Of a DNA stretch of 64,000 nucleotides, positions 14,397 to 55,976 are shown piece after piece. The position numbers and the translations under genes were made by a program. The notes beneath the pieces were generated by a model. The model ran no database searches, was not told where the DNA came from, and saw nothing but the letters and a program-made list of their open reading frames with translations. Origin of the DNA: an uncultured Thermoproteales archaeon (lineage in GTDB: Archaea; Thermoproteota; Thermoprotei; Thermoproteales; Thermoproteaceae); contig CALJAK010000007.1 of NCBI GenBank assembly GCA_938027595.1, forward strand, positions 1 through 64,000, given 5' to 3'. Each line of letters opens with the position of its first letter. The stretch's first letter is position 1.

Positions 14397-14506
14397 TGGT
14401 GCGGCGGCCGGGATTCGAATTCCCGGGGTCAACCCACCCGGGATCAACGGCTCTCTTCGCGTGGCGTGGGAGGCCGCCATCCTAAACCAGGCTAGACTAC
14501 CGCCGC
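14397..14506 (-). tRNA. tRNA-Gly(CCC) with two introns, one in the T arm
   Basis: Acceptor GCGGCGG/CCGCCGC, discriminator A and CCA are encoded. The anticodon loop reads CTCCCA after stem GCGGC, giving anticodon CCC. A 15-base stretch (14452-14466) separates it from the 3' stem GCCGT, so one canonical-position intron of about 14 bases is inferred. Removal of a second 17-base insertion (14420-14436) joins CCGGG to TTCGAAT-CCCGG and restores a perfect T arm. That intron, between positions 53 and 54, can form a 4-bp helix CCCG/CGGG with 3-base bulges, as cut by the splicing endonuclease. The exact boundaries of the anticodon-loop intron are less certain. Confidence 0.88.
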
Positions 14507-45964: not shown

Positions 45965-46077
45965 TGGTGGGCCCGCCGGGATTCGAACTCCCGGGGTCAG
46001 CCCCACCCGGGACCTCCCGGTTATCAGCCGGGCGCTGCGGTCTGGAGAACCATCTAACCGGGCTAAGCCACGGGCCC
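45965..46077 (-). tRNA. tRNA-Ile(GAU) with a D-arm intron and a T-arm intron
   Basis: Acceptor GGGCCCG/CGGGCCC, encoded A-CCA, anticodon stem CCCGG/CCGGG around CTGATAA (anticodon GAT). A 17-base insertion (46037-46053) splits the D stem between 22 and 23: central helix GGTT/GACC, bulges AG^A and GC^A, hairpin TGG-TTCT-CCA. An 18-base insertion (45988-46005) lies between 53 and 54; removal restores CCGGG-TTCGAAT-CCCGG. Both have the bulge-helix-bulge layout cut by the archaeal splicing endonuclease. TATA-like ATTTATATAAC about 25 bases upstream. Confidence 0.9.
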
Positions 46078-54896: not shown

Positions 54897-55014
54897 TGGC
54901 GCCGGGGCCGGGATTTGAATTCCCGGGGTTTCCCCTCCCGGGCCCCCTCACGGGGACGGGCTAACTGCCTTGAAGTTAGCAGGCCCGCGCCTTGGGCCGC
55001 TCGGCCACCCCGGC
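54897..55014 (-). tRNA. tRNA-Ser(GCU) with anticodon-loop and T-arm introns
   Basis: Acceptor GCCGGGG/CCCCGGC, discriminator G, CCA encoded. Anticodon stem CGGGC/GCCCG; loop CTGCTA then A after removing a 14-base intron (54963-54976) at 37/38, with CTGC/GCAG as the central helix. A 17-base intron (54920-54936) between 53 and 54 interrupts the T arm: GG^A bulge, GGG-GAAA-CCC hairpin, CCCG/CGGG helix, AA^T bulge. Long variable arm (class II). It has its own TATA (TTTATAAAA, about 55036-55044). Confidence 0.92.
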
Positions 55015-55050
55015 TCGCTATAGCCAATGTCGAATTTTATAAATTTTTCT

Positions 55051-55154
55051 TGGCGCCGGGGCCGGGATTTGAATTCCCGGGGTTTCCCCTCCCGGGCCCC
55101 CTCACGGGGACGGGATCTCCAGTCCCGCGCCTTGGGCCGCTCGGCCACCCCGGC
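55051..55154 (-). tRNA. tRNA-Ser(GGA) with a T-arm intron
   Basis: Acceptor and discriminator as in the neighbouring tRNA-Ser; anticodon stem CGGGA/TCCCG around CTGGAGA (anticodon GGA), no anticodon intron. A 17-base intron (55074-55090) between 53 and 54 is identical in sequence to that of tRNA-Ser(GCU). CCA is encoded. The pair is separated by 36 bases and probably arose by duplication, with a change of the anticodon arm. Confidence 0.92.
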
Positions 55155-55185: not shown

Positions 55186-55950
55186 TTATGACCCTATGTA
55201 CACCTCTCTCACTTTGGGGTCAGACGCCACTTGTTCCGGAGTGCCGCGAGCAATGACCCTACCGCTAGCCATGGCGTACACCACGTCGACGTAATTAAAC
55301 GCGATGTCTATCCGGTGTTCAATTACGAGAAACGTAACTCCATGTCGCTTATTTATATCTACCACGGTCTTCAAAACGCCATGTGCTTGATCTATGGGGA
55401 CGCCGGCGATGGGCTCGTCAAGTATGACGAGGTCTGCGCCGGCCATCAAAGCTCTACTTAACTCAAGTATTTTTATCTCCCCCGCCGAGAGTAAATACGC
55501 CGGTACGTCCCACTTGCCGGCGAGGCCGACGGTTTTCAAAATTTGGAAAGCGCGCTCCGCCAGTTCCTCCTCTTGTCTAGTCCAAGTTTTCAACACCGCC
55601 GAAATTATGCCCTCTCCCCTCTGCCCCCTAGCCACAGCCATCAAATTCTCTAACACAGTTAACTTTTGGAATATCTGCGGTATTTGAAAAGTCCTCACAA
55701 TGCCGATTTCAAAGATCTTATGAGGTGGCCACCCAGTTATGTCGAATTCCCTCCCATCTCGTCTGTACACCACTCTCCCAGCTTCTGGCTTATAAACGCC
55801 GGTAATTACGTTGACTAAAGTGGTTTTGCCAGAGCCGTTCGGCCCAATTATCAGAGTGATCTTACCCCTTTCTATACTTACATCAACGCCGTCTAGAGCT
55901 CTGAATGCGCCAAATTGCTTTACTACACTGTAGACAGTCAATATGTCCAT
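55186..55950 (-). CDS. livG: Branched-chain amino-acid ABC transporter ATPase (LivG-type)
   Basis: 254 residues. Walker A G-P-N-G-S-G-K-T-T at 37-45, EIGIVRTFQIPQIF (the LivG F-Q region) near 91, LLSAGEIKILELSRALM in the signature place (LSAGE rather than LSGGE), Walker B LVILDEPIAGVPID. Its partner LivF is at 15866, and the permeases are next door, divergent. Read with the LivK at 55994 as one unit. Confidence 0.9.
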   Translation of the reverse strand: MDILTVYSVVKQFGAFRALDGVDVSIERGKITLIIGPNGSGKTTLVNVITGVYKPEAGRVVYRRDGREFDITGWPPHKIFEIGIVRTFQIPQIFQKLTVLENLMAVARGQRGEGIISAVLKTWTRQEEELAERAFQILKTVGLAGKWDVPAYLLSAGEIKILELSRALMAGADLVILDEPIAGVPIDQAHGVLKTVVDINKRHGVTFLVIEHRIDIAFNYVDVVYAMASGRVIARGTPEQVASDPKVREVYIGS

Positions 55951-55976
55951 AGGAAAGGGAGAAAAATATACTTATT

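Follow-up and report, generated by a model that had tools for sequence, protein, structure and literature searches.

Two tRNA-Ser genes follow each other on the minus strand of the window, i.e., the whole 64,000-nucleotide stretch of DNA of a hot-spring archaeon that was analysed, with tRNA-Ser(GGA) upstream, tRNA-Ser(GCT) downstream and 36 bases between them. Both match Rfam RF00005 with a large insertion, tRNA-Ser(GGA) at 33.3 bits and tRNA-Ser(GCT) at 28.1 bits, the latter just under the cut-off of 29. In the genome, which is 96.5% complete, no further gene for either isoacceptor turned up. The features of the locus are the following.

55189..55971, minus strand: branched-chain amino-acid-type ABC ATPase gene (Pfam PF00005, PF12399), directly upstream of tRNA-Ser(GGA)
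55051..55154, minus strand: tRNA-Ser(GGA) gene, 104 nt, CCA encoded, one predicted intron
55093..55096, minus strand: exon strand CCCG of the proposed 4-bp bulge-helix-bulge (BHB) helix of tRNA-Ser(GGA), pairs with 55076-55079
55076..55079, minus strand: intron strand CGGG of the same helix, pairs with exon CCCG
55074..55090, minus strand: predicted 17-nt intron of tRNA-Ser(GGA) at 53/54, AGGGGAAACCCCGGGAA, absent from 9 of the 9 orthologs read
54897..55014, minus strand: tRNA-Ser(GCT) gene, 118 nt, CCA encoded, two predicted introns
54963..54976, minus strand: predicted canonical 14-nt intron of tRNA-Ser(GCT) at 37/38, helix CTGC/GCAG, bulges TA^A and TT^A
54920..54936, minus strand: predicted 17-nt intron of tRNA-Ser(GCT) at 53/54, AGGGGAAACCCCGGGAA, identical to that of tRNA-Ser(GGA)

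Each gene carries one copy of the 17-mer at exactly the coordinates given in the original prediction. What it called duplicate genes are different isoacceptors, with the anticodons GCT and GGA, and the canonical 14-nt intron (54963-54976) had been missed. With up to three mismatches allowed, a 26-mer that covers the insert has two occurrences in the window, where 0.00 are expected. As had been proposed, removal of the 17 bases joins CCGGG-TTCAAAT-CCCGG, a perfect T arm.

The 17-nt inserts are almost certainly introns, removed from the RNA before use; we infer the excision because the orthologs have an empty site, the genes are recognised as tRNAs only when spliced, and both subunits of a splicing endonuclease are encoded. 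Site 53/54 is empty in 9/9 Ser(GGA) and 9/9 Ser(GCT) orthologs, taken from 10 genomes of the same GTDB genus, of which G009 (74% complete) yielded neither gene. Here the parser misparsed the GGA genes of loci L040, L041 and L045; the ortholog genes of L040 and L045, whose 37/38 introns it misplaced, were read by eye. The same ABC ATPase lies upstream of Ser(GGA) in seven congener loci (tblastn, 74-79% identity) and marks the orthologous locus. By eye, Ser genes of congeners G009 (L041) and G007 (L048) carry inserts inside the T loop and not at 53/54.

Run over the window, ARAGORN calls neither tRNA-Ser gene. On the isolated genes it finds no tRNA in either precursor, and none when only the 37/38 intron is removed, while tRNA-Ser(gga) and the doubly spliced tRNA-Ser(gct) are called after the 17 bases are deleted. 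In both genes, 53/54 with these 17 bases is the top-ranked solution of an intron-tolerant parser that tests every cut offering a BHB helix; of 52 genes given to this parser, four were unparsed and several had low scores or doubtful anticodons. The genome encodes both subunits of a splicing endonuclease: alpha, 182 aa long, aligns with PDB 2zyz_B from end to end (2.2e-91), and beta, 103 aa long, matches 2zyz_A (3.9e-37). The PDB listing names 2zyz as PAE0789, and we take it to be the splicing endonuclease of Pyrobaculum aerophilum.

At the insert, exon CCCG pairs with intron CGGG at all four positions, next to a GGG-GAAA-CCC hairpin and two 3-nt bulges, GG^A and AA^T, just as originally described. 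With the cut fixed at 53/54 and the 17 bases shuffled 200,000 times, the 4-bp helix arises in 1.4% of the cases and the helix together with a 3-bp hairpin in a fraction of 1.5e-5; for random 17-mers the corresponding values are 0.4% and 1.5e-4. No outer helix was identified beyond the two bulges, so the motif may be of the relaxed hBH/HBh' type. Folding energy was dropped as proof of the motif, as the BHB form of the local RNA is not favoured at 37 C (-10.6 versus a minimum of -17.4 kcal/mol, in a model that ignores tertiary contacts, proteins and growth temperature), and the local fold of the insert region is no better than that of shuffles (z 0.10). A preference for the BHB fold in isolation would add support, but the intron family does not formally demand it. 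In the proposed pathway, the intron CGGG of the pre-tRNA would pair with the 5' exon CCCG to form the bulge-helix-bulge, a heterotetrameric (alpha-beta)2 splicing endonuclease would cut at GG^A and AA^T, and a ligase would join the exons, after which the T arm CCGGG-UUCAAAU-CCCGG can form.

That both genes share one intron is best explained, from the comparison of the sequences, by gene conversion of Ser(GCT) by Ser(GGA). Outside the anticodon arm the two genes differ at 0 of 64 positions here, versus 6-11 in eight congeners and 2 in G008, and the Ser(GCT) anticodon arm is an ordinary GCT arm. The GGA and GCT genes already lie side by side, and in the same order, in at least six congeners, 173-321 bases from start to start (140 here), and in those congeners the GCT body differs from GGA in the D arm, the variable arm and the T stem. 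What favours gene conversion is this identity of the two bodies here, anticodon arm aside, set against their differences in the congeners. The conversion would have copied the gene body with its intron into the neighbouring Ser(GCT) and spared the anticodon arm and promoter of the latter, and a single gain of the intron would then suffice. In G008, Ser(GCT) has a GGA-like body but no insert, so conversion may have occurred more than once, or before the intron arrived.

The shared intron could also stem from a tandem duplication of the whole gene followed by a change of anticodon, with no gene conversion. The two genes are adjacent, on the same strand and identical outside the anticodon arm, and their upstream 36-nt flanks share 22/36 bases, which places them in the top 7 of 435 flank pairs in the genome; because of this similarity, a longer copied tract or a duplication is possible. 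However, the downstream flanks share just 14/36 bases, the GGA-GCT pair with its distinct GCT body was in place in at least six congeners, the anticodon arm is the ancestral GCT arm, and the AT-rich GCT promoter resembles, by eye, the GCT promoters of the congeners. We therefore regard a duplication as rather improbable. Two separate entries of the 17-mer, one into each Ser gene, would fit with the copies of the intron in many isotypes of this genome, but the flanking 40 nt of the 3' body and 24 nt of the 5' body are identical too, unlike in 8/9 congeners. A single copied tract is simpler for this reason, and independent entry has little to recommend it.

The introns of the Ser genes belong to a larger set. 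A profile model was built from nine such T arms, mostly with CCGGG stems, and the best 150 candidates per genome were scored. This genome holds at least 10 strong matches (53.7-65.7 bits, the next at 24.9). Among the congeners there are at least 14 in G002, at least 8 in G007, at least 4 in G008 and at least 1 in G009, while the remaining six have no strong match among the matches listed from their best 150 candidates. Introns of the same architecture at 53/54 are thus predicted in at least 10 of the approximately 45 tRNA genes of the genome (40 plus Ser(GGA), Gly(TCC), Gly(CCC), Cys and Lys). The host genes are Ser(GGA), Ser(GCT), Gly(GCC), Gly(TCC), Gly(CCC), Pro(CGG), His(GTG), Cys(GCA), Ile(GAT) and Lys(CTT), where the isotypes of Gly(GCC) and Pro(CGG) were assigned by reading, as second introns confused the parser. 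Three of these genes are located as follows.

45965..46077, minus strand: tRNA-Ile(GAT), predicted 18-nt intron at 53/54 (45988-46005) and D-arm intron (46037-46053)
14397..14506, minus strand: tRNA-Gly(CCC), predicted 17-nt intron at 53/54 (14420-14436) and a further anticodon-loop insert
G000:C2:141777-141810 (L074, L181): tRNA-Lys(CTT), predicted intron with the core of the Ser intron and a second predicted intron near 30/31

ARAGORN misses the tRNA-Ile(GAT) gene at 45965-46077. In 398 genomes, with the best 16 candidates scored in each, further matches were obtained in other Thermoproteaceae and in a small number of additional genomes within the order and phylum. Weak matches at about 30-33 bits (G235, G360, G139 and the second site of G392) were left out of the insert set, and those at about 21-29 bits were mostly classed by length as T arms lacking an intron, some without reading. 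A pattern scan of the named genomes for the CCGGG stem returned 13 stretches, each from a record of Thermoproteaceae, Pyrobaculum or Thermoproteus. The collected set contains 62 inserts, 51 of them distinct, from 15 genomes. A CCGGG/CCCGG stem lies under 61/62 of the inserts and the four helix pairs are kept in 62/62, features that the search model itself favours. In another genome of the Thermoproteaceae (G219), an identical 17-nt insert at 53/54, AGGCAGAGGCCCGGGAA, is present in four tRNA genes (L156-L159; Pro and Cys by reading).

The collected set also bears on whether the T arm can pair with the insert in place, which the original prediction had named as an observation against it. On paper such pairing exists: a register-shifted arm, CGGGA-(ATTCAAA)-TCCCG, can be drawn in the unspliced RNA because the CCCGGG stem is palindromic; it can be drawn in 61/62 inserts and fails in tRNA-Lys. 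However, this arm lacks the T54-T55-C56 loop, and with the stem in register the unspliced form fails in 62/62 and the spliced form is perfect in 62/62. One could read this arm as the mature one, CGGGA-AUUCAAA-UCCCG, with the insert staying in the tRNA as an extended variable region. At 37 C the minimum-energy fold of the precursor does contain the shifted arm, and the arm recurs in nearly the whole set, but its loop is off by one, tRNA-Lys is unable to form it, congeners have no insert, and ARAGORN rejects the unspliced genes; we consider retention very improbable. As a decoy in the unspliced RNA, the shifted arm might slow or regulate splicing. That both Ser genes are disrupted pseudogenes is hardly credible: the insertion does lie in a conserved arm and ARAGORN calls no tRNA here in the window, but no second gene for either isoacceptor was found in the genome, the exons of both genes are intact up to the encoded CCA, and eight other tRNA genes of the genome bear the same kind of insert.

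The copy in tRNA-Lys(CTT), AGGGGAAACCCCACGAA, is placed on a different T stem, GTGGG/CCCAC, and equals the Ser intron at 15/17 bases. The two differences are exactly those bases that pair with exon CGTG, i.e., two compensatory pairs in one gene, and the core common to the introns on the CCGGG stem of Ser and the GTGGG stem of Lys is AGGGGAAACCCC. A pattern search of 45 genomes of the order found the GTGGG stem type in this one tRNA-Lys(CTT) gene only. With the Ser/Lys pair, BHB pairing can be told apart from a simple direct repeat of the palindromic CCCGGG stem. A direct repeat or target-site duplication, CCCGGGA...CCCGGGA, was rejected, as the 3' end of the Lys intron, CACG, complements exon CGTG and gives no repeat. 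The attachment site of an integrated element found no support as an origin either, as the Ser 3' end, searched for in the genome at up to one mismatch, matched only the two genes and gave no third copy. The claim of a non-canonical archaeal intron at 53/54 is supported by the empty-site orthologs, the restored detection, the endonuclease genes, the compensation in Lys and the site list in PMC4090602.

The inserts of different isotypes within a genome also resemble each other. The mean normalised distance between inserts is 0.237 within a genome across amino acids (173 pairs), 0.277 between genomes for the same amino acid (217 pairs) and 0.313 where neither is shared (1472 pairs). None of 2000 label shuffles reached 0.237, in a statistic that ignores tree structure and with isotypes partly assigned by reading. 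This pattern is in line with the intron transposition published for Thermoproteales. From their distribution, the intron would have reached Ser(GGA) in this lineage as one of many spreading 53/54 copies. The original prediction had left the choice between duplication and intron spread, and each contributes something; spread across isotypes holds genome-wide, and for the Ser pair itself gene conversion fits better than duplication. Further, it can be speculated that the 53/54 introns are a mobile family that copies itself between tRNA genes with its 3' strand re-matched to the T stem of the recipient, through templating at insertion or through rapid selection, and that conversion then carries the intron-bearing bodies between neighbouring isoacceptors. 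This is a tentative idea, which we consider rather unlikely.

We give the whole account, i.e., BHB introns at 53/54 that spread into Ser(GGA) and were then carried into Ser(GCT) by conversion, a probability of roughly 0.93. Judged from the gene sequences, two single-copy tRNA-Ser genes would join the set that depends on relaxed-specificity splicing, and the Ser genes provide a clean empty-site comparison. The pair also points to gene conversion as a route by which an intron can pass from one isoacceptor to another, and counts of intron 'transposition' have to reckon with this.

Introns at 53/54 and the spread of introns between tRNA genes in Thermoproteales are already published, and the claim that non-canonical introns are known in this order is borne out. 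Site 53/54 is among the known tRNA intron sites in PMC4090602; transposition of introns between Thermoproteales tRNA genes is credited to Fujishima et al. 2010 in PMC4090602 and PMC4033280; and PMC8450103 counts 71 introns, distributed over 46 tRNA genes, in P. calidifontis. At the level of titles and abstracts, no published report of 53/54 introns in tRNA-Ser was found. Within the genomes compared, it is mildly new that Ser genes are hosts and that the copy in Lys has matched changes, as is the proposed conversion history.

The P. aerophilum endonuclease (PDB 2zyz) has close homologs of both subunits in this genome, where the enzyme is predicted from its genes. The 53/54 BHB introns of Sugahara et al. 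2008, as cited in PMC4090602, share the position, the length class, the 4-bp helix and the two 3-nt bulges. The difference lies in the host genes: Ser(GGA) and Ser(GCT) each carry a 53/54 intron here, while none was found at that site in Ser or Lys in the 10 congeners searched. The likeness to the transposed introns of the Fujishima type, as far as they are outlined in the same secondary sources, is that similar introns occur in different isotypes of one genome, such as Ser and Lys at 15/17 bases. What may set the present case apart is that the Lys copy has retained the core with a 3' strand that fits another T stem, and that the Ser pair would add gene conversion as a carrier of the intron.
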